Below are positions 3,925 through 16,825 of a DNA stretch of 32,603 bases, in pieces. This DNA comes from Campylobacterales bacterium (GTDB lineage Bacteria; Campylobacterota; Campylobacteria; Campylobacterales; Hydrogenimonadaceae): the NCBI GenBank assembly GCA_027065515.1, contig JAMOOM010000175.1:1-32603 (forward strand). Direction: 5' to 3'. How positions within the stretch are numbered: position 1 is the stretch's first letter; each line of letters starts with the position of its first letter. The notes beneath the pieces are model-generated. The model did no database searches and was not told the DNA's origin. It saw only the letters and a program-made list of their open reading frames with translations. Both the position numbers and the translations under genes were made by a program.

Positions 3925-5904
3925 TCAGATTTTAAATTGCCGCAATTCGGCGAAGAGTTCTCTGGATAGCTGCTCGATCTTTTTAATCTGTTCGTCGGCA
4001 TTGTAGATTCGTTCTTTGTTACTCTGTGAAATGGATTCGAGAGATGATATCTGCGTAATGAAATAGTTCATGACATCCGTCGCCGTATCGATGGTTTTGG
4101 CGGTTTTTTTGATATGATCGACAGCCTCTTTCATCTGAGCGGTAACGCTGTTGATGCCCTGTTCGACCTGGACCGTCTCTTCCGTAAGACGGTTTACGTT
4201 GTCTATATTGTTTACCATTCGGCTGCTTGCATCCATAATTGATTGGACGATGACATTGATGGTGGCATTGATATCGGTCAGACTTTTTTGGGTTCGTTCC
4301 GCCAGTTGTCGAACTTCGTCTGCGACAACGGCGAAGCCTCGGCCATGCTCTCCCGCGCGAGCCGCTTCGATGGCGGCGTTCAGAGCCAGCAGATTCGTCT
4401 GCTCGGCGATATCGCTGATTACGTCGAGCACCTGCTTGACCTGGCCCGCTTCGTTGCTTAGGTTTTCCAGCTGGGAAGCCAGCTCGTTTTCCACCTGGGC
4501 GTTGCTTTCGATCTTTTCGATGGTACTGTGGATGAGCTCGACGGTCTGGTTGAGATCGTTATTGGCCCGATCCATCTGATCGCACGTCTGTCTAACATCT
4601 TCGTTGCTTTCAGTGAAAATCTGCTTGACATGTTCCGTTTTTTGGGCATATTCTTGGATGATCTTCGCTTCCTGGTCGGTATCGGCCTGGATTTTTTCAA
4701 AAATATCGCCAAGATGCTCGACGGCCTCGACATTTTTTTGTGTTCCCTGCCGAACGTGCAGAATGAATCGATGCAAAACATCTATCAGTCCATTGAAAGC
4801 GTGAAGAACTCTTCCAAACTCGTCTTTGTTTCCATCCTTGACTTTGATCGTCAGGTCGCGCTCTTTGGCCGTTTTCGAGATGATATTTTCAAGTTTCTCT
4901 AAGCGTTCGGAGAGATTCCTGATGGCGAGATAGGCGAGAATGAAGATTATGACGATTATGACGATATTGACTGCCATTTCGATGATGGCTTTGGATCCAA
5001 GAGATTGAAGGCTCTCTTCGATCGTATTGGCAATTTCGTCATCGACCTCTTTGAGGATATCGATTTTTTTGGTCATGGTTTCAAACCACACTTCAGGATC
5101 GACGCCGAAATTACCGTCGGTTGCGTGCGCTTTTGCGATATTGCGGAAATGTTCCACTTCTGCAAAAACGGGATCGTTTCGTTTTTGCAGATATATTTTG
5201 CGCAATTTGGGCGGCGCGATAGAGAGAAAATCATCTATATAGGCTTTCTGCTCGGCCACGAGAGAGATAAATTTTTCGTACAAAGAGGGAGTGAAGCGAT
5301 TGGCGCCGAAGGCCGCGCTCAGCACAGCCCTTTCGATACCTGCACGCTCTTTGGCCTTGAGAAAAGAGCCATAGGACGACAGCATCGAAAGAATCGACTT
5401 GTTGGGAGCCAGGAGAGCCGTTTCGGTGATGATATTCAATATCTGCTTATTGATGGCGGTATAAAAATCGACTGCCTGAGGAAGTGTCGTATTCTGCTGC
5501 TGCACCTTTTCTCTCATCGACGCAATGGTGGATAACTTATTGGATAGATCTTTTAGGACGAGGCGGATTTCGTTGGGGTAGTGGGAGTAGTCAAGCGAGG
5601 AAATTTTTTGATTGCAGGCTTTGATTTTGGCATCGGTGAGATTGTATTGATGCGGAAGCCGGGAAGAAAATTTTCTCCCCCCACTACCCAAAAATCCGGC
5701 ACTCATTCCCCTCTCTTTTTGTAATTCATGAATGAGTTGACTTAGATTCTTGGCCAGCTGGACAAGCTCGTAGGATATCTGGGCGTTGACTCTATCTTTT
5801 TGCAGTTGGTAGGCGCTGATACCGGTAAAATAGAGTAGAAGCACCATCGGTAAAGCTACCAGGCCGATGATTTTGGCTCGAATGGAAAGGTTGTTAAAAT
5901 ACAT
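3925..5904 (-). CDS. Methyl-accepting chemotaxis protein with NIT sensor domain
   Basis: A transmembrane chemoreceptor that reports ligand state to CheA/CheW and so to flagellar switching. Transmembrane helices lie at about residues 11-32 and 308-327. The periplasmic part between them is a NIT domain, recognisable by [16 protein letters not shown] (59-74) and [10 protein letters not shown] (184-193); this all-helical family is named for nitrate/nitrite sensing, although the ligand here is inferred. A HAMP-like linker (about 328-385) leads to the signalling coiled coil. The most conserved hairpin tip is near 501-536 ([20 protein letters not shown], then [18 protein letters not shown]). It is a single-gene unit with a hairpin downstream. 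The Shine-Dalgarno AGGAG lies about 14 bases from the ATG, which is long, but the N-terminus is typical for a receptor. Confidence 0.93.
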
Positions 5905-6284: not shown

Positions 6285-8861
6285 ATGAGTATATTCGAAA
6301 AACTTACGCATCAAATGACCGAGACGATAGAGTCCGGCGTCAGTCTGGCGCTGCACAATAAAAATCCGGAAGTTGAGCCCGTTCACTTGGTATGGGCGCT
6401 TTTGACAAACAGTGGAAGTGTGCTCAACCAGGCGCTTAACCGCATGAGTGTAGATAAAGCACCCATCGAACTTGAGGCCAAAAGTGTCGCCGATAAATTG
6501 CCAAAAGTTTCGACGGTAACGAAAGAGAGCATTAAAATATCCAGAGCCCTTCAGGAGTCTTTGCAAAAAGCCGAGGGTCTAATGGCGAAGCAGGGCGACC
6601 AGTACCTTGCTGTGGATACATGGCTTCTGGCCAATCTGGATCATCCACAAATAAAAGAGATCCTTGGAAAATATGTGGATATGATGGAGCTTAGAAAGAC
6701 TTTCGAAGCTATCCGCGGCGGCAAGAAGATCGAGAGCCAGACAGCAGACGAGACACTCGAAGCGCTCGAGAAGTATGGCATCGATCTGAACAAGAAAGCG
6801 ATCGACGGGGAGCTGGATCCTGTTATCGGACGTGATGAAGAGATCGAGCGCGTTATGCAGATCCTGATCCGTAAAACGAAAAACAACCCAATCCTCCTGG
6901 GTGAACCCGGTGTCGGTAAGACCGCCATTGTGGAGGGTCTGGCACAGCGTATCGTAAACAAAGAAGTGCCGTTGAGTCTGCAGAACAAGCGCGTAGTTGC
7001 ACTCGATATGAGCGCGTTGATTGCGGGCGCAAAATATCGCGGAGAGTTTGAAGACCGCCTGAAGGCTGTTATCGAAGAGGTGAAAAGCAGTGGAGATGTA
7101 ATCCTTTTCATCGATGAAATCCATACGATCGTCGGCGCGGGTGCTAGCGAAGGAAGCATGGATGCCGCCAATATGCTCAAGCCTGCCTTGGCGCGTGGCG
7201 AGCTTCATACGATTGGCGCTACGACTCTGAAAGAGTATAGGAAATATTTCGAAAAAGATGCCGCGCTGCAAAGACGTTTTCAGCCTGTGCATGTCAACGA
7301 ACCGAGCATCAATCAGGCACTGCAGATCCTTCGCGGTTTGCGGGAGAGACTTGAGGCGTTCCACAACGTCACGATCCTGGACAGCGCACTGGTGGCGGCA
7401 GCCAAACTTTCGGCACGATATATTACAGACAGGTATCTGCCGGACAAGGCGATCGACCTTATCGATGAAGCAGCGGCAGAGTTGAAGATGCAGATCGAGA
7501 GCGAGCCCAGCGAGCTGGCTCGTGTCAAGCGTGAAATCAGCCGCCTGCAGGTCGAAAAAGAGGCGCTGATGATGGAAGAGTCCAAGAAAAACGAAGCGCG
7601 TCTGAAAGAGATCGAAAAAGAGCTGGCCGACCTGGAAGAGAAACGGCGCAAACTCGAAGCGCAGTTCGAGACCGAAAAGAAAGTGTTCAACGAGATCGCA
7701 CAGATCAAGGTGGAGATCGAGAAGCTGCGCCACGAGGCGGAAACTGCCAAGCGAAATGGCGACTACAACAAAGCGGCCGAAATCGAATATGGAAAGATTC
7801 CGCAGCTCGAAGATCAGCTCAAGCAGCTGAACGAACAGTGGGAGCGCATGCAAAAAGAGGGCACGCTGCTCAAGAATGCTGTCGATGAAGAGATGATCGC
7901 CAAAATCGTGAGCAGATGGACGCAGATTCCGGTGACCAAGATGCTCCAAAGCGAAAAGGAGAAGATCCTTCATGTCGAAGAGGTGCTCGCGCAAGAGGTA
8001 GTAGGGCAAGAAGCCGCTATCAAAGCGGTAGCGCGTGCCATCAAAAGAAACAAAGCGGGGCTTAGCGAGCAGAATCGTCCGATTGGAAGTTTCCTGTTCC
8101 TGGGGCCCACAGGCGTGGGTAAGACCCAGACTGCCAAAACGCTGGCCAAGTTCCTGTTCGATACGGAAAAAGCTCTGATTCGTATCGATATGAGTGAATA
8201 TATGGAGAAACACGCGGTAAGCCGCCTGGTGGGAGCGCCTCCGGGATACGTTGGCTATGAAGAGGGCGGACAGCTTACCGAAGCGGTGCGAAGAAAGCCA
8301 TACAGTGTCATTCTTTTCGATGAGATCGAAAAGGCGCATCCGGATGTTTTCAATGTCTTGCTGCAGGTACTGGACGATGGTCGGCTAACCGACAACAAAG
8401 GGGTTACGGTCGATTTCAGGAATACGATCATTATCCTTACGAGTAACATCGCCAGCGACAAGATTATGGAATTCAAAGATCCGGAAGATCGTGAAAAGGC
8501 GGTCAAGGACGAGCTGAAAATGTATTTCAAGCCCGAATTCCTGAACCGATTGGATGATATGGTCATATTCAATCCACTCGATCAGGCGGCAATCACGAAG
8601 ATCGTGGACATTCTTTTCAGAAATGTTCAAGAGAAGCTAAAAGAGCGCGATATCACGATCGAGCTCAGCGATGCCGCAAAAGAGCTGATAGCCAAAGCCG
8701 GATTCGATCCGGTCTATGGTGCCCGTCCGCTCAAAAGAGCGCTTTATGAAATCGTCGAAGACCGGCTTGCCGAGCTGATTCTCGAAGAGAAGATCAAAGA
8801 GGGCGACAAAGTTCTCTTTGATGCCCAAAACGACGAAATCGTTGTGCGAATCAACCCCTAA
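6285..8861 (+). CDS. clpB: ATP-dependent disaggregase ClpB
   Basis: ClpB is a hexameric AAA+ chaperone that works with DnaK/DnaJ/GrpE to pull proteins out of heat-induced aggregates in the cytosol. The 858 residues match the full-length family. In order: the Clp N-domain (1-145), AAA-1 with Walker A GEPGVGKT (206-213) and Walker B FIDEIH near 275, the coiled-coil M domain (about 400-525, rich in E/K/A/L) that distinguishes ClpB from ClpA and ClpC, and AAA-2 with Walker A GPTGVGKT (607-614), followed by the small C-terminal domain ending VVRINP. AAGGAG lies six bases before the ATG. It is transcribed alone from the promoter at 6145-6174. G+C is clearly higher than in the genes downstream. Confidence 0.98.
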
Positions 8862-8876
8862 ATCTTCAAATTGAAA

Positions 8877-8900
8877 AGCTGGGAAAATTTTTTCCCAGCT
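8877..8900. terminator. Perfect palindrome after clpB, possible terminator
   Basis: AGCTGGGAAAA (8877-8887) is mirrored by TTTTCCCAGCT (8890-8900), with only TT between. The stop codon of clpB lies 16 bases upstream. No T-run follows the stem, so an intrinsic terminator is uncertain; the internal A/T tract could act in either direction. Confidence 0.4.
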
Positions 8901-8990
8901 ACTACCCTTTCTGAAATCTTCTATTTTTAAAAAATCCCTCAAAAGAGCACCTCCAAAATCAGTGCAGGCTCTATTCTTGAAAAAAATCGA

Positions 8991-9022
8991 CCGCTTTAAA
9001 TTGGAAAAGCGGAGATAAATTT
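8991..9022 (+). terminator. Second stem-loop downstream of clpB, weak terminator candidate
   Basis: CCGCTTT (8991-8997) pairs with AAAGCGG (9006-9012) around an 8-base loop, followed by a mixed AT tract ending TTTT (9019-9022). The stem is seven base pairs, and the tail is poorer in T than a classic intrinsic terminator. Confidence 0.35.
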
Positions 9023-9189
9023 TCAACAAGTTATAATTCCAGGTTAAAAAAATAAGAAAATGTCTATGTCTATATATAAAGCATCAAAGATGTGCTCAAG
9101 CCTTTCTGAAATTGAAAATGAAGAGAAATTTAGCTTTCTTTGGGTGCTTTAAGAAGAGAGATTGCAGAAAATTATCGGGAGATTTCGGG

Positions 9190-10485
9190 ATGAAGAATTT
9201 ATTAAAAAATATCAATTTGCTTTATGTTGAAGACGATAAGGAAATTGCCGAAGAGATGATCTGTATATTGAAAATGGAGATAGGGATTGACCATATATTC
9301 CATGCGACAAATGGGCAAGAGGGGCTGAAACTGTTTAGAGAAAACGATATCGGCTTGATTGTCGCAGATATCATGACGCCTGTTATGAATGGTCTCGAGA
9401 TGTCCAAAAAGATAAAAGAGATTGACCCCTCCGTTAGCATCATTATAGTTTCTGCCTTCAGTGAAGTTTCATATCTTCAAAAAGCTATTGAGGTAGGTGT
9501 GGATAATTATATTTTAAAACCAATAAATATAAAAAGTTTTTTAAATATTGTCGAAAAGTCCGCTTTGAATTTGCAGCAAAAAAGGCAGATCAAAGAGTAT
9601 GCATTGCTGTCTGAAATGTTGATGAACACCACCTCGAATCTTATATTTGCGATTTCGGACAATAGAGTTATATTCAAAAATAGAAGCTTGTCGAATAAAT
9701 TGGATATCGACGAGAAGAGCAACGACAATTTCTCCTTGTGCGATTATATTTTGAATATAGATGGTAGCAGGAAATTTAAAAAAGAAAAAGAGATGCTTTC
9801 ATATTTTCTTGACAAAAAGAGTGAACAAGTTATCTATATGAGAAAAGATATAAAAAACCCTCGATCGGCACTTGATATTTATGATGTTAACGTTATGTAT
9901 ATAGAAACATCGGACAAATATCTGGTGGTATTTACGGATATAACCAGGATATATAATGAAAAAGAGAGATACAAATTGGAATCTTTTACGGATAGATTGA
10001 CAAATGTAAAAAACAAACATTACTTTAAGCACATTTTTCACAAAATGATCGATAATGCAAAATTCGACAATAGATATAAACTAAGTTTGATTATGTTGGA
10101 TATCGACCATTTTAAAAAAATCAATGATACCTATGGGCACCAGACAGGTGATAAAGTGTTAAAGAGTATGGCGCAACTGGTGCGAAAAATGTTGAGAGAA
10201 GATGATATATTTGTCAGATGGGGAGGAGAGGAGTTCACTATTTTGTGTAATTTCGACATAAATGCCGCTATAGGTTTGGCTGAAAGGCTAAGAGAGCATA
10301 TACAGCTGCATAAATTTGAAACTATAGATAGGTTGACTTGTAGTTTCGGAGTGGCGACATTTTGTAAAAATGATGATAAAAGCACTCTGTTCGATCGTGC
10401 GGATAAGGCATTGTACAGGGCAAAGAATAGTGGAAGAAACCGGGTAGAATATATCGAATGTGCTTCGGAGAAAAAGGATGATTGA
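9190..10485 (+). CDS. Response regulator diguanylate cyclase (REC-PAS-GGDEF)
   Basis: Predicted to make cyclic di-GMP from two GTP when its receiver is phosphorylated. The receiver (residues 8-122) has the acidic pocket E14/D15/D16, phospho-acceptor Asp60 in IVADIMTP, and Lys110 in ILKPI. A PAS-like segment follows (about 130-255, ending VVFTDITRIYNEK). The GGDEF domain starts near 263 (FTDRLTNVKNKHYF) and has the catalytic GGEEF at 345-349. RxxD (REDD, 336-339) five residues before it is the inhibitory I-site, so product feedback is expected. I chose ATG 9190, which has GGGAG eight bases upstream; an earlier in-frame ATG at 9112 would add 26 residues outside the receiver fold. Codon use is AT-rich with many ATA. 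Its stop lies just before the receiver gene that follows. Confidence 0.92.
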   Translation: MKNLLKNINLLYVEDDKEIAEEMICILKMEIGIDHIFHATNGQEGLKLFRENDIGLIVADIMTPVMNGLEMSKKIKEIDPSVSIIIVSAFSEVSYLQKAIEVGVDNYILKPINIKSFLNIVEKSALNLQQKRQIKEYALLSEMLMNTTSNLIFAISDNRVIFKNRSLSNKLDIDEKSNDNFSLCDYILNIDGSRKFKKEKEMLSYFLDKKSEQVIYMRKDIKNPRSALDIYDVNVMYIETSDKYLVVFTDITRIYNEKERYKLESFTDRLTNVKNKHYFKHIFHKMIDNAKFDNRYKLSLIMLDIDHFKKINDTYGHQTGDKVLKSMAQLVRKMLREDDIFVRWGGEEFTILCNFDINAAIGLAERLREHIQLHKFETIDRLTCSFGVATFCKNDDKSTLFDRADKALYRAKNSGRNRVEYIECASEKKDD

Positions 10486-10486
10486 A

Positions 10487-10852
10487 ATGAAAAGAGTTTT
10501 AATCGTGGAAGACAATCAAGACAATATGGATGTTCTTGAGGCGTTTTTGGAAGATGATTACGAGTTGCTGAAAGCTACCGATGGCAAAATGGGGTTGGAG
10601 ATGGCGATAGATGAAAAACCCGATCTGATATTGCTCGATATATCTCTGCCTGCAATGGATGGCGCACAGGTGATAGCGGAGATCAGAAAAAATAGAGATA
10701 CAAGAAATACTCCCGTGATTGCACTAACTGCCCATGCAATGCTTGGGGACAAGGAGAAGTTTTTAAAATCTGGTTTCGATGGGTATATGAGCAAACCAAT
10801 TGTGGACGAAGACAAACTTATAGAGATGATCGACAGATTGATGGGAGAGTAG
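10487..10852 (+). CDS. Stand-alone receiver-domain response regulator
   Basis: A 121-residue CheY-like protein consisting of one receiver domain with no output domain. It shows the acidic pair E8/D9, phospho-acceptor Asp51 in LLLDISLPAMDG, the switch threonine in VIALTAHAM, and Lys in GYMSKPI. VEDNQDN at the start and TAHAM at the switch are typical of receivers that serve hybrid kinases (the DivK or CheY-like relay class). I infer that it carries phosphoryl groups between the two kinases and the cyclase of this cluster. The ATG at 10487 begins at the usual family start and has AAGG nine bases upstream; an in-frame ATG at 10478, overlapping the previous gene, has GGAG seven bases upstream and is nearly as good. 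Confidence 0.88.
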   Translation: MKRVLIVEDNQDNMDVLEAFLEDDYELLKATDGKMGLEMAIDEKPDLILLDISLPAMDGAQVIAEIRKNRDTRNTPVIALTAHAMLGDKEKFLKSGFDGYMSKPIVDEDKLIEMIDRLMGE

Positions 10853-10853
10853 A

Positions 10854-13760
10854 GTGGACTATACAAAAGCGATACAAATAGCACAAAACATTCACTGGGT
10901 AGGAATGTATTTGGAGAATGATCCTTTTCAGTGCCATCCTTATTTTATACACAATGGTGACGAGTCCATACTTATAGATCCAGGTTCAATGATAGAGTTC
11001 GATGCGGTTATGGAGAAAACTTCACAAATAACCGACTTGAAAAATATAAAATATATAATACTGCATCATCAAGATCCTGATCTGTGCGCATCGATTCCGG
11101 AAATAGAAAAAGTTATAGACAGAGATGATTTGAAGATAATTACGCATAGCCGCATGACGGTTCTGATAAAACACTATATGATAACATCGAGTTATTACGA
11201 GATAGACAAAAACGATTTTAAACTTGAAACGAACAATGGATTCAATTTAAAATTTCTCACTACACCCTATTGCCACTCTCCCGGAGCGTTTGTCACCTAT
11301 GATCCTAAAAGCAAAGTTCTCTTTTCCAGTGATATTTTTGGCGGGCTGGAAGAGTCTTGGGAGTTTTATGCAAAAGATGACTACTTTTCCAAGGTAAAAG
11401 CTTTTCATAGCACCTATATGCCAAGTAGGGATATTTTCAATCACGCTTTGAGAAAGATCGAGCAGCTAGATATAAACCTCATAGCGCCACAACATGGGTC
11501 GATCATAGAGAGACGATACGTATATGGGCTGATCGAAGATATGAAAAATCTTGAATGCGGCCTTTATATAGATAAAAAATATAACGATGAATTGACCGGT
11601 ACGATAGAAAAATTGAAAGCAAAAGAGAGAGAATTAAAGGAATACAAAAATCATCTCGAGGAGAAAGTAAAAGAAAAAACATACTTTCTCGAAGAAGCGA
11701 ATGCGGCGCTTCAGCTAGAACAAGAAAAACTGAATATGTTCAACGAGTATCTTGGTGAACTAAACTCTGTCGATGTAGGTTTTTTGGCAAACACCGCCAT
11801 AAAACAGATACTAAACATAGCCCAGGCGCAAATAGGTGTATTCTATATCAATGAAAACGACAAACGATTAAAGGTATTGGCGAAGCATAGCGTCGATCCC
11901 AAGCTGTTGAAATCGGGATTTTTCAACAACTCTTCCGGCGGCATAGTGGCTCAAGCATACAAGAGCGGCGAATGGATATATGTAGATGGGCTAAACGAAG
12001 AGTTGGCTCCCGAGATCGATCTTGGGTTTTACCGATCAAAACTGAAGCATATCGTAGCGATTCCATTGAAGTTTCAAGAGAAAAAGATAGGTGTCGTCCT
12101 GATCGGTTCCGTATCGAATGCCAGGTTCGACGAAGATTATCTAAAAGGATATATAAATACACTGGTGCAATCTTTGAACAATGCTATTACATATGTCGAA
12201 ACACAGAAACAATCTATCGAGCTTAGAGATATCAATATGCAGCTCGAAGAGGCGAATAGACTGAAATCAGAATTTTTAGCCAATGTATCTCATGAACTAA
12301 GAACACCTCTCAACTCTATTATCGGTTTTTCAAATATTTTACAAAAAAATAAAAAAGGAAATCTTTTACCGAAACAGTTGGATCAACTCGAAAAGATAAA
12401 CAGAAACGGTATGAACCTGCTCGATCTTATCAACAATATCCTGGATCTTAGCAAAATAGAATCGGGCAAAATGGAAGTCGAATTTAGAGAGATAGATATA
12501 GTGAGTGCCGTACACGATACTTTGGAACTTCTTATGCCGCAAGCAGCTAACGGCGGCAAAAAGATATCTTTTACAAATTCATTGGGAAGTGGTGCATATA
12601 AATATACGACCGATGAGCAAAAATTCAAACAGGTAATAGTAAATATAGTATCAAATGCATTGAAATTCGTTGAAAATGGCATCGGAAAGGTAGATGTAGA
12701 GGTTTTTGAAGAAAACGAAATGTTGAAGATAGCTGTTAAAGATAATGGTATAGGAATACCCGAAGAGAAATTTGAGAAGATTTTTGAGGCGTTCAGGCAG
12801 AGTGATGGAAGCACGACCAGGAGGTTTGGCGGTACTGGATTGGGGCTTGCCATATCAAAAAATATGCTGGAGTTGCTCGGTGGCTATATCGATCTCGAAT
12901 CGATAGTAGGGGAGGGGTCCACCTTTACCATTTGTCTGCCCTTGAACAAGAAGCAATCATCCATATTGTCGCCAGATTTTTTAAATGATTTCAAAGAAAA
13001 ACTCTACACTCTAGAGGATATCACCTCCGTGCTTGTGATAGACGATGCAAAGGATGTTAGAGATCTTATAGCGGAGTATCTAAGTGATCAAAATTATATC
13101 GTTTATGCCGCGGACAATGGATACGATGGAGTTGAGATGGCTAAAAAATTAAAGCCATCATTGATCACTCTGGATATCATGATGCCCGGTATGGATGGCT
13201 GGGAGGTTTTAAAAAGGCTGAAAGCGTCAAGCGAGACTTGCGATATTCCGGTGGTCACCATAACCAATGCGTCAAACAGATCCAAAAGCATATATCTGGG
13301 TGCAATCGACTCCATATCCAAGCCGTTGTCGAAAGATGATTTGCTCTCTTTTATCTCCAAATATTTCGATACCGGTAAAGCAGGCAGCGCTTTGATTGTC
13401 GATGATGAAGAGGATATCAGAGAGTTGATTCAAGAGTATATAGAAGACGATATAAAAAACATTCAAAGCGCATCCGATGGCAAAGAGGCTCTGGAGGTGA
13501 TAGAGAGAGGCTTTGTTCCCGATATCATCTATCTGGATTTGATGATGCCAAATCTGAGCGGATTCGAATTTTTGAAAATAGTGGAAACAAATCCCAAATT
13601 TAAAAATACCCATATAGCGGTAGTGACCGCAAAAGATCTAACGAACGAGGATATGGAGATTTTAAAACCGTCTTGTGTGAGCATAATTAAAAAAGGCGGA
13701 AATATCGAAGAGATAATCAAAGAGCTCGCCCAAGATGCCAAAAACGGCAGGTCAAAGTGA
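10854..13760 (+). CDS. Hybrid histidine kinase with di-iron MBL-fold (ODP-like) sensor, GAF and two receivers
   Basis: A soluble 968-residue sensor kinase, starting with GTG one base after the preceding stop. Residues 1-240 form a metallo-beta-lactamase fold like flavodiiron proteins and the oxygen-binding ODP sensors, with ligand candidates H72-x-D74-x-D76, H141, D160 and H214 in the right order; that domain is typically a di-iron O2 or NO site. A coiled coil (245-295) links to a GAF domain (about 300-450). HisKA has the phospho-accepting His480 in SHELRTP. The HATPase_c domain (585-700) has the N box near 601, DNGIGIP and GGTGLGLAI. Receiver 1 (725-838) carries Asp774 and Lys823. Receiver 2 (845-960) carries Asp895 but lacks the usual Lys-Pro pair. 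No membrane segment is visible, so it should sense cytosolic signals. The oxygen or redox stimulus is inferred. Confidence 0.88.
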   Translation: MDYTKAIQIAQNIHWVGMYLENDPFQCHPYFIHNGDESILIDPGSMIEFDAVMEKTSQITDLKNIKYIILHHQDPDLCASIPEIEKVIDRDDLKIITHSRMTVLIKHYMITSSYYEIDKNDFKLETNNGFNLKFLTTPYCHSPGAFVTYDPKSKVLFSSDIFGGLEESWEFYAKDDYFSKVKAFHSTYMPSRDIFNHALRKIEQLDINLIAPQHGSIIERRYVYGLIEDMKNLECGLYIDKKYNDELTGTIEKLKAKERELKEYKNHLEEKVKEKTYFLEEANAALQLEQEKLNMFNEYLGELNSVDVGFLANTAIKQILNIAQAQIGVFYINENDKRLKVLAKHSVDPKLLKSGFFNNSSGGIVAQAYKSGEWIYVDGLNEELAPEIDLGFYRSKLKHIVAIPLKFQEKKIGVVLIGSVSNARFDEDYLKGYINTLVQSLNNAITYVETQKQSIELRDINMQLEEANRLKSEFLANVSHELRTPLNSIIGFSNILQKNKKGNLLPKQLDQLEKINRNGMNLLDLINNILDLSKIESGKMEVEFREIDIVSAVHDTLELLMPQAANGGKKISFTNSLGSGAYKYTTDEQKFKQVIVNIVSNALKFVENGIGKVDVEVFEENEMLKIAVKDNGIGIPEEKFEKIFEAFRQSDGSTTRRFGGTGLGLAISKNMLELLGGYIDLESIVGEGSTFTICLPLNKKQSSILSPDFLNDFKEKLYTLEDITSVLVIDDAKDVRDLIAEYLSDQNYIVYAADNGYDGVEMAKKLKPSLITLDIMMPGMDGWEVLKRLKASSETCDIPVVTITNASNRSKSIYLGAIDSISKPLSKDDLLSFISKYFDTGKAGSALIVDDEEDIRELIQEYIEDDIKNIQSASDGKEALEVIERGFVPDIIYLDLMMPNLSGFEFLKIVETNPKFKNTHIAVVTAKDLTNEDMEILKPSCVSIIKKGGNIEEIIKELAQDAKNGRSK

Positions 13761-14935
13761 AAGATCAATATAAAAATAAAATACTGATAGTTGACGACTC
13801 CATGGATAATCTCGATCTAATCGAAGATATGCTAAATGATGAGGGATATGAAGATATCATCTGCGTGATGTCCGCCAGAGAGGCTTATGAAAAACTAAAG
13901 AGCAGTGATATAGATTTGATAATTCTCGACATAATGATGCCCGGGATCAATGGTATAGAAGCGTGCAGGTGCATAAAAGCCAATGAATCATACAAAGATA
14001 TACCCATTATCATAGCGACGGCAAAAGTTGATCTTGAAACCCTGAAAGAGGGTTTCGATGCCGGTGCAAACGATTATATAAGAAAGCCCATAGTAAACGA
14101 TATAGAGCTTCTATCAAGAGTAAAAAACGCTTTAAAATTGAAAGCGAGTATGGACAAGTACAAAGAGTTGGCCGAAAACCTGGATGAAAAAGTGCGGCAG
14201 GAACTTGAAAAAAACAGATTCAAAGAGCAGCTTTTAATGCACCAATCCAAAATGGCAAGCATGGGGGAGATGATCGGAAATATAGCGCATCAGTGGAGGC
14301 AACCTTTGAGTGCGCTTTCATTGTCGGTTCAGAAGGTTAAAATGCTGCACGAAAAAGATAAGCTGGATGCTCAAATCCTGAAACAGGCAACCGAAAAAAG
14401 TTTAATGCTCATAGAAAGGATGTCAGGTACTATCGATGATTTTATGGGCTTTTTCAGGCAAAACAAAGTCAGAACCCCCTTTGATGTGCAAAGCGCAATA
14501 GAAGAGACGCTAACGCTACTCGATGCCAGTTTGCAACACAATTGCATAGAGTACGATTTTATCAAAAGTGATGGCAAAATCGTTGTCGAAGGGCACAAGG
14601 GTGAATTTTCACAAGTCATTTTGAATATTTTATCCAACGCAAAAGATATACTCAAAGAGAGAAAAATCAAAAATCCCAAAATTGAAATAGAGGTATCGCT
14701 GGATGAAGAAAACGTGACCATAGAGATAAAAGATAATGGCGGCGGTGTGCCGGTAGAAATTATTGACAGAATTTTTGAGCCATATTTCACCACAAAAGAG
14801 GAGGGAAAGGGTACGGGGATAGGACTTTATATGTCAAAAGTTATAATAGAGAAAAACATGGGCGGAGGCGTAGGTGTAAGAAATGAGGAAAATGGCGCGC
14901 TGTTTTGGATAAAGTTGCCATATAAAGCTTTATAG
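13757..14935 (+). CDS. Soluble REC-histidine kinase
   Basis: A 392-residue cytoplasmic kinase with an N-terminal receiver instead of a membrane sensor. The receiver (8-125) has D13/D14, phospho-acceptor Asp58 in LIILDIMMPG, and Lys110 in IRKPI. A coiled coil (130-160) leads to a DHp helix with His178 in GNIAHQWRQPLSAL, a form common in Campylobacterota and deltaproteobacterial kinases. The HATPase_c domain (about 265-390) has NAKDILKER, DNGGGVP and GKGTGIGLYM. The GTG start overlaps the previous stop by 4 bases (GTGA), so it is translated together with the ODP-type kinase. It is probably switched by phosphorylation of its own receiver, making it a middle layer of a relay. Base usage matches the three genes before it. 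Confidence 0.9.
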   Translation: MKDQYKNKILIVDDSMDNLDLIEDMLNDEGYEDIICVMSAREAYEKLKSSDIDLIILDIMMPGINGIEACRCIKANESYKDIPIIIATAKVDLETLKEGFDAGANDYIRKPIVNDIELLSRVKNALKLKASMDKYKELAENLDEKVRQELEKNRFKEQLLMHQSKMASMGEMIGNIAHQWRQPLSALSLSVQKVKMLHEKDKLDAQILKQATEKSLMLIERMSGTIDDFMGFFRQNKVRTPFDVQSAIEETLTLLDASLQHNCIEYDFIKSDGKIVVEGHKGEFSQVILNILSNAKDILKERKIKNPKIEIEVSLDEENVTIEIKDNGGGVPVEIIDRIFEPYFTTKEEGKGTGIGLYMSKVIIEKNMGGGVGVRNEENGALFWIKLPYKAL

Positions 14936-14967
14936 AAGAGAATAAAAGCGTCGTCTTGGAGAATATC

Positions 14968-15534
14968 ATGAAATTTTTTTCAAACCTTAAGATCCGCACG
15001 ACCCCTTCGGTTGCGATTCGTATTTTTCTATGGGCTTTTATGCTCATAGGAGGAGTGGTCGGAGGGATCTATTGCGATTTGGTATGTTTTGAGAGTTTCA
15101 AAGCTCTCTTTCTTGATCCTTTTTATCATTTGTTGACTTTTATTCTCGGCTTCATATTGATGGCGATGGCTTTTCGGGCTGCGGCAGCCGGTGGAAGGGA
15201 GCTGGCAAAACATGGCAAAGATGGGCAGGTGCCGCGATTGGAAACCAATCGCCTCGTTACAGGCGGTATATATGCCCATATGCGCCATCCGATGCTTTTT
15301 GGACTCACTCTTGTGCCGCTAGCGCTTGGGCTGATGGTGGGGTCTGTCACTTTTATTACTCTGATAGCGCCCATCGAGATGACATTTATCGTAATCATGG
15401 TGCTAACTTTCGAAGAGTGGGAGTGCCGTAAAAAATTTGGCGGCGCCTACGATGCATATGCCAAAAATGTTCCCGCTGTCTGCTTCAAGCCAAAATGTCT
15501 AAAAGCGCTTTTTACAAAAAATTCCAAAAACTAA
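14968..15534 (+). CDS. Isoprenylcysteine methyltransferase-like membrane protein
   Basis: A 188-residue integral membrane protein of the ICMT/phospholipid methyltransferase superfamily, which uses S-adenosylmethionine. Hydrophobic helices lie at about 18-38, 52-70 and 108-142. The SAM-binding signature is GIYAHMRHPMLFG (97-109), with the conserved RHP, and the C-terminal pattern EEWECRKKFGGAYDAYAKNV. Bacterial members have no established prenyl-cysteine substrate, so the methyl acceptor is unknown. ATG 14968 has TTGGAG six bases upstream; a TTG four codons earlier is less likely. G+C is back to the level of the housekeeping genes. It converges on metK, which makes SAM, with 12 bases between the stops; that adjacency may be coincidence. 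Confidence 0.85.
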   Translation: MKFFSNLKIRTTPSVAIRIFLWAFMLIGGVVGGIYCDLVCFESFKALFLDPFYHLLTFILGFILMAMAFRAAAAGGRELAKHGKDGQVPRLETNRLVTGGIYAHMRHPMLFGLTLVPLALGLMVGSVTFITLIAPIEMTFIVIMVLTFEEWECRKKFGGAYDAYAKNVPAVCFKPKCLKALFTKNSKN

Positions 15535-15546
15535 ATGCGGACACCT

Positions 15547-16743
15547 CTAAAGAAGTGATTTGAACCAATCGATACGATCGAGTTTTTCCCATGGATAATC
15601 TTCATACCCCACCTGTCCTCTTGCAGCTATATCGGCATACAAAAAGGAGTTTTCGCATGGGTGGTCGAGTCCGAACATTTCAGTGATCCATACAGGCGTC
15701 AAAGGAAATTCAGCGGCTATCTTTGCCGAAAGCTCTTCATCTTTGATATTACCTGCGGCCGTTCCCATCGTATCTACCGTTACGCTTACCGGATGGGCAT
15801 GCCCGATGACATATGCTATCTCGACTATCGCTTTTTTGGCCAATTTGGCCGCGACTATATGTTTTGCGATCCATCGCGCTGCATACAGACCCGATCGGTC
15901 CACTTTTGTATAATCTTTGGAGCTTTGTGCTCCACCGCCGATCGGAGCGTAGCCTCCATAGGTATCGGCTACGGTTTTACGCCCCGTGGTGCCGCTGTCG
16001 GCCAAAGGACTGTGCGTAACATAGCGCCCCGTTCCGTCGATGAAGAAGCGGCAGCTTTTCGCATCAAACAGTGGATCTTTTTCGAGCGCCTCCTCTATCA
16101 CTTTTTGAATCTCTTCTCTGGCCTCCTCTATATCGAGCGTTTTTACATGTGGTATGGCTGCGACGATCGTGTGGATGCCTACGGGTTTTCCTTTGGTGAA
16201 ATTCACTTTCGTACCATAATCCATTGTTACCTGCGTCTTTATATCCACTCCGAAACGACCTGGATTGTCAAGAGCGTAGCTGTATAACAAATCACGGATT
16301 TTTCTGCTGTAAAAAAGTGCTGAAGGCAAAAGGGTCGTCGTTTCATCGGTTGCGAAGCCTATCATCATCCCCTGGTCCCCCGCACCGATTTCACCGCTTT
16401 TCTTGTCGACTCCTATACTGATATCGGGAGACTGGCGCGATATCAGAACTTCTATGTCGGCAGTATCGGGATAGAGGGTTTCGTCCTCGTCGAAACCGAC
16501 TTCCGGATACCCGATGGAGCTAAGTGCATCGAGAGCGCAGAGTCTGTAGAAATCTTCACTCACAGGAGCTGTGGTTTTCACTTCACCACCAATAATGATG
16601 TGTTTTCCGCTTATAAAGACCTCGGTCGCCACGCGCGAGTTGCTATCGAGCTCCAAAAGCCTGTCCACGATCGTGTCCGCGATGATATCGGCGCACTTGT
16701 CTGGATGTCCGGCGGATACCGATTCGGATGTGTAGAGATACAT
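15547..16743 (-). CDS. metK: S-adenosylmethionine synthetase MetK
   Basis: Methionine adenosyltransferase makes SAM from methionine and ATP in the cytosol. The 398 residues cover the three repeated domains. Signatures are SAGHPDKCAD (10-19, ATP and metal binding, with His13 and Asp15), GAGDQGMMIGFA (120-131) and HSPLADSGTTGRK. The usual GGGAFSGKD phosphate loop reads GGGAQSSKD here; the Lys-Asp is retained, so activity is expected. It is a single gene with its own start region, divergent from the DksA-like gene (82 bases apart) and convergent with the methyltransferase. Confidence 0.97.
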   Translation of the reverse strand: MYLYTSESVSAGHPDKCADIIADTIVDRLLELDSNSRVATEVFISGKHIIIGGEVKTTAPVSEDFYRLCALDALSSIGYPEVGFDEDETLYPDTADIEVLISRQSPDISIGVDKKSGEIGAGDQGMMIGFATDETTTLLPSALFYSRKIRDLLYSYALDNPGRFGVDIKTQVTMDYGTKVNFTKGKPVGIHTIVAAIPHVKTLDIEEAREEIQKVIEEALEKDPLFDAKSCRFFIDGTGRYVTHSPLADSGTTGRKTVADTYGGYAPIGGGAQSSKDYTKVDRSGLYAARWIAKHIVAAKLAKKAIVEIAYVIGHAHPVSVTVDTMGTAAGNIKDEELSAKIAAEFPLTPVWITEMFGLDHPCENSFLYADIAARGQVGYEDYPWEKLDRIDWFKSLL

Positions 16744-16825
16744 AAATTCTCCTATGGGGCTATAGGTGCCCGTTAAAGTATAATATTTGTATAATACCCA
16801 ATATATAAAAAAAGGAGAAGTATCT

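Follow-up and report, generated by a model that had tools for sequence, protein, structure and literature searches.

An ODP-family sensor module fused to a GAF-containing hybrid histidine kinase in a Campylobacterales bacterium

The oxygen-binding di-iron protein (ODP) has been described in Treponema denticola and Thermotoga maritima (PDB 6qnm, 6r9n, 6qrq, 6qwo), where it stands alone and works together with a cytoplasmic chemoreceptor and CheA. According to the TREND paper (PMC7319448), ODPs fused with signal-transduction domains were identified in Muok et al. 2019. In the literature we found no experimental description of an ODP-kinase, no ODP kinases in Sulfurimonas and no ODP alongside haemerythrin sensing, most subscription journals lying outside the search. 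Metal sites for O2 or NO ahead of a kinase or GGDEF output are known from FixL, DosS, NreB and haemerythrin-GGDEF proteins; these are haem, Fe-S or four-helix di-iron sites, unrelated in fold to the ODP.

The window analyzed here is a stretch of 32,603 nucleotides from a Campylobacterales bacterium (Hydrogenimonadaceae; assembly GCA_027065515.1, contig JAMOOM010000175.1). An open reading frame at 10854-13760 on the forward strand encodes a protein of 968 amino acids; it begins with GTG and follows immediately on the gene before it. Its features and those of the adjoining genes are as follows.

9190..10485, + strand: receiver-diguanylate cyclase with a GGEEF motif (Pfam, homology, sequence)
10487..10852, + strand: single-domain CheY-like response regulator (Pfam; start at 10487 by homology)
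10854..13760, + strand: ODP-GAF-HisKA-HATPase-REC-REC hybrid sensor kinase (ORF list, translation, Pfam)
10926..11498, + strand: ODP di-iron sensor module, residues 25-215 (Pfam PF19583, PDB 6qrq, Foldseek)
11067..11081, + strand: HQDPD motif with H72, D74 and D76 (sequence, alignment)
11274..11276, + strand: H141, predicted metal ligand (sequence, alignment)
11331..11333, + strand: D160, predicted bridging ligand (sequence, alignment)
11490..11495, + strand: Q213-H214 of PQHG (sequence, alignment, PMC7785958)
11580..11753, + strand: long helical linker from ODP to GAF, residues 243-300 (full-length model, sequence)
11784..12146, + strand: GAF domain, residues 311-431 (Pfam GAF_2, weak, E 2.2e-8)
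12264..12467, + strand: HisKA domain, residues 471-538 (Pfam)
12612..12947, + strand: HATPase_c, residues 587-698 (Pfam)
13029..13352, + strand: receiver 1, residues 726-833, acceptor D774 (Pfam Response_reg)
13389..13718, + strand: receiver 2, about residues 846-955 with approximate boundaries, acceptor D895 (second Response_reg stretch, sequence)
13757..14935, + strand: REC-histidine kinase of the WRQPL type (ORF list, Pfam, homology)

An earlier note on this DNA had read the protein as an ODP-type sensor domain followed by GAF, HisKA, HATPase and two receivers, and all of the latter domains were matched by Pfam, GAF_2 weakly. The features of a hybrid histidine kinase are complete, with the phospho-acceptor H480 lying within SHELRTP, the ATP-binding boxes DNGIGIP and GTGLGL of HATPase_c, and both receiver aspartates intact. 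No membrane segment appears among the domains found. The full-length model (pTM 0.28) is too poor for domain coupling and was used only for helix extents; at low confidence it draws linker residues 243-300 as one long helix, probably a coiled coil.

Assignment of the N-terminal module to the ODP family rests on several lines of evidence. The Pfam profile PF19583 aligns over its whole length (1-194 of 194) with a score of 220.3 bits against a curated cut-off of 27.2 and an E value of 2.7e-65, a sequence match far beyond chance. As the profile also matches in many control genomes, motif and fold features matter for membership. The functional module would take up about residues 1-240. Sequence searches of the PDB returned the two ODPs as best matches (E 2.9e-30 for 6qrq and 6.9e-22), with flavodiiron proteins behind them (4e-10 and weaker). 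An AlphaFold2 model covering residues 2-249, for which 24 natural sequences served as input, reached a pLDDT of 88.5 and a pTM of 0.87, and the structural superposition that the earlier note had proposed, run with Foldseek against the PDB, placed ODP chains at ranks 1-8, including the peroxy di-iron form 6r9n, followed by flavodiiron proteins. Zinc lactamases, a closer likeness to which had been named as grounds for abandoning the idea, enter only from rank 40, at a TM of about 0.62 compared with 0.83 for the ODPs. It is hardly conceivable that the module is a metallo-beta-lactamase domain akin to zinc hydrolases and unrelated in role: a weak Lactamase_B match exists (E 1.8e-11), but it falls far below the ODP score, the motif reads HxDxD-L where zinc enzymes have HxHxDH, and zinc hydrolase identity was rejected by motif and fold ranking together.

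In the translation, H72, D74, D76, H141, D160 and H214 stand exactly at the six di-iron ligand positions that had been proposed, and alignment shows the HDDHDH set kept in 82 of 83 fused relatives and in both solved ODPs. HxDxD in place of HxExD had been taken for a peculiarity. It does separate the protein from flavodiiron proteins, but among ODPs it is the rule, the two solved ones reading HQDPD and 82/83 fused relatives having aspartate in the middle position; HxDxD as an unusual feature was accordingly rejected. The residue after D76 is leucine (HQDPDL), compared with HQDPDV in the solved ODPs and HxEPDH in flavodiiron relatives. A seventh candidate ligand residue, absent from the earlier list, is Q213 of PQHG. 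The ligand set of the Thermotoga ODP is unusual in that the motif 2 histidine is replaced by a motif 5 glutamine (PMC7785958), to which Q213 probably corresponds by alignment; it is kept in 82/83 fused relatives and both solved ODPs, and is leucine in two flavodiiron relatives. Altogether, the window module has Q73, H107, G144, H185, Y188, Q213, C235 and G236 in common with the solved ODPs but not with the two flavodiiron relatives. The single exception to the ligand set among the fused relatives is a degenerate 500-residue ODP-GGDEF protein (L031:5344-6846), which has lost most of its metal ligands (N, E, D, Y, D, Y at the six positions) and whose GGDEF motif likewise looks degenerate; it is possibly a pseudo-sensor.

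The module thus shares with the T. denticola and T. maritima ODPs the fold, the HQDPD motif, the six ligand residues, the glutamine and the other ODP-type residues, but differs from them in being fused to GAF and a hybrid histidine kinase. The chemotaxis arrangement, a stand-alone ODP beside a sensor-less chemoreceptor, is not found in the window. With flavodiiron proteins (ROO 1e5d, FprA 1ycf, flavorubredoxin 4d02) it has the di-iron metallo-beta-lactamase fold in common; unlike them, it reads HxDxD-L instead of HxExDH, lacks a flavodoxin domain and carries the ODP-type glutamine, so that neither hallmark of a flavodiiron protein, HxExDH ligands or the flavodoxin domain, is present.

To place the module among its relatives, 84,980 species genomes were scanned; 483 encoded relatives came up, and 80 loci were kept. 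The commonest fusion joins ODP to a WRQPL-type kinase in a protein of about 500 amino acids. Further fusions include PAS-kinases, GAF-kinase-REC(-REC) hybrids as in the window, cyclase-type proteins (GGDEF, PAS-GGDEF, PAS-GGDEF-EAL), SpoIIE phosphatases with or without TPR, and an OmpR-type winged helix. ODP-SpoIIE proteins were seen in L098-L100, L102 and L104 (Leptospiraceae, Spirochaetaceae) and in L113 (Magnetobacteriaceae), those of the spirochaetes scanned also carrying TPR. In a maximum-likelihood tree, the window's module falls into a six-member clade of hybrid kinases (support 99/89). This clade lies within the branch of fused modules, from which the stand-alone ODPs, the two solved ones included, are set apart (96/96); the flavodiiron outgroup is very long-branched, and the root is not to be trusted. 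Within the order, the module occurs in 49 of 299 sampled genomes and in frames of more than 800 residues in only three of the 299, the window's among them, whose genome has one PF19583 match. No relative was found in viral contigs, and a viral origin was rejected. Curated family, homology to solved structures, predicted fold, ligand conservation and tree agree, and we therefore conclude that the window protein is an ODP-family sensor kinase. It belongs among the ODPs fused to signal-transduction domains, a general kind already reported in 2019; the general architecture idea is alike, and the hybrid GAF-REC-REC form, its cassette and a one-component form are documented here.

The one-component form comes from Sulfurovum. 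At a locus flanked by ilvB, seven genomes of Sulfurovum and relatives encode an ODP-kinase followed, where the contig reaches, by an OmpR-type regulator. Three Sulfurovum genomes have instead a single 353-residue ODP-winged-helix protein (L094:8001-9062, L103:2866-3927, L108:8001-9062), whose winged helix is 53-62% identical to the DNA-binding domain of the replaced regulator. Kinase and receiver have dropped out, with the ODP predicted to act directly on the output. Since an ODP joined directly to a DNA-binding domain replaces a kinase-plus-regulator pair, the module would be a sensor, not an enzyme; this replacement and the range of output domains bear out the preference for sensing over catalysis voiced in the earlier note, as does the lack of a flavodoxin or rubredoxin partner, none being present in the protein or in the neighboring genes scanned. 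That the module is a residual or active O2- or NO-reducing enzyme whose turnover the fused kinase reports is very improbable: the ligand set is intact and the superfamily is common to flavodiiron oxidases and NO reductases, but the compared sites carry ODP-type, not flavodiiron-type, residues, and the module is fused to many kinds of signaling output, a bare DNA-binding domain among them. The Sulfurovum replacement is likewise hard to reconcile with an enzyme.

Taken as a whole, it is likely that the window encodes an ODP-family hybrid kinase switched by O2, possibly NO, binding at a di-iron site. Sequence and model establish the family, the ligand residues, the domains and the conservation of the cassette; for iron occupancy, ligand, switch direction, phosphate route and output, we infer the following scheme. 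The metallo-beta-lactamase-fold module would hold a di-iron center via H72, D74, D76, H141, D160, H214 and probably Q213, and this center would bind O2, possibly also NO, reversibly. The change at the metal site would alter autophosphorylation of H480 through the long helical linker and GAF. Phosphate would then move from H480 to D774 and D895 in the attached receivers, and from there to the CheY-like regulator, the REC-kinase and the receiver-diguanylate cyclase, either directly or via an Hpt protein encoded elsewhere. The window's module is only about 28% identical to the characterized ODPs and lies on a separate branch, and ligand and affinity may therefore differ from those of the chemotaxis proteins.

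Because many related ODP kinases adjoin haem d1 genes, NO rivals O2 as the ligand, and the module might primarily sense NO, or nitrosative species derived from nitrite, and tune denitrification and lifestyle. Of the 80 loci, about 29, most of them from Sulfurimonas, have the ODP-kinase next to such genes (radical SAM, cytochrome d1-like, SUMT-type methylase); two further, distant methylase-only matches are left out of this count. The kinase gene often overlaps the methylase gene by about 16 bases. In L073 (4987-10185) and about 28 other loci of Sulfurimonas and relatives, an ODP-kinase and an OmpR-type regulator end a haem d1 biosynthesis operon. Among the proteins of the window's genome are a cytochrome d1 nitrite reductase and a possible NorB, a member of the cytochrome-oxidase-I family, and flavodiiron proteins, the enzyme relatives of the ODP fold, reduce NO as well as O2 (PMC6033852). 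However, the haem d1-adjacent loci come from another kinase subgroup, the nir genes of the window's own genome adjoin a kinase pair with PAS and not ODP, six other loci adjoin anaerobic ribonucleotide reductase, an O2-type target, and the characterized ODPs are O2/Fe(II) sensors. A primary NO sensor is therefore rather unlikely, while still the most serious of the alternatives considered.

In the six ribonucleotide reductase loci (L048, L062, L088, L091, L096, L105), the ODP-kinase and its regulator lie upstream of the reductase; this context and that of haem d1 fit O2, NO or both. On contig C162 of the window's genome (L124:261-5958 and 8131-16803), a PAS-kinase and its regulator stand close to a haemerythrin, nrdD and a nir cluster that includes the cytochrome d1 nitrite reductase; this kinase pair has PAS where relatives have ODP. 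As nir and nrdD lie on another contig with a PAS-kinase, the argument from gene context is not directly transferable to the window kinase, and the notion that this kinase itself sits in the nir locus was rejected. Sensing of Fe(II) availability or redox state by metal loading, with O2 only oxidizing the site, seems quite improbable; the title of Muok 2019 calls ODP an Fe(II) and oxygen sensor and the metal site could be either occupied or vacant, but the cassette and the neighbors scanned showed nothing related to iron.

The ODP kinase gene lies in a gene cassette. The REC-kinase gene shares 4 bases with it and lies 3' of orthologous hybrid kinases wherever the contig allows, and in L036, L037, L038, L039 and L040 a CheY-like regulator lies ahead of the hybrid kinase. 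By homology, the diguanylate cyclase starts at 9190 rather than 9112; its RxxD inhibition site reads REDD, followed after five residues by GGEEF. L036 has a receiver-GGDEF gene in the same place (66% identical), and L037 a more distant one downstream (35% identical). The cassette with CheY-like regulator and REC-kinase is thus conserved, and the receiver-diguanylate cyclase is found in the window and one close relative. Pfam found no Hpt domain in the ODP kinase or the cassette genes, and a relay would therefore not be complete locally. Elsewhere in the window's genome there are four Hpt-like matches, including a candidate of 134 aa on contig C161, so that a full His-Asp-His-Asp relay is possible. 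The output would likely be c-di-GMP. Beyond clpB, on the opposite strand (3925-5904), lies a methyl-accepting chemotaxis protein with its own sensor, a NIT nitrate/nitrite-sensing domain (Pfam).

Little is known about the means by which free-living Campylobacterota perceive oxygen and nitrogen oxides at redox boundaries, and the ODP module is a concrete, testable sensor candidate for this group. Its outputs in relatives range from kinases and c-di-GMP enzymes to a one-component form that binds DNA and is suited to a simple assay; with the same module fused to so many different outputs, ODP looks like an all-purpose plug-in module for sensing oxygen or a related gas. More tentatively, and with somewhat more doubt than belief, the fused branch could be a general mobile gas sensor of Campylobacterota and some Spirochaetota, Nitrospirota and Gammaproteobacteria, with NO and O2 as natural ligands. 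Denitrification (by haem d1 operons), the anaerobic reduction of ribonucleotides and c-di-GMP would then be under its control, by way of kinases, cyclases, SpoIIE phosphatases and one-component regulators that bind DNA.
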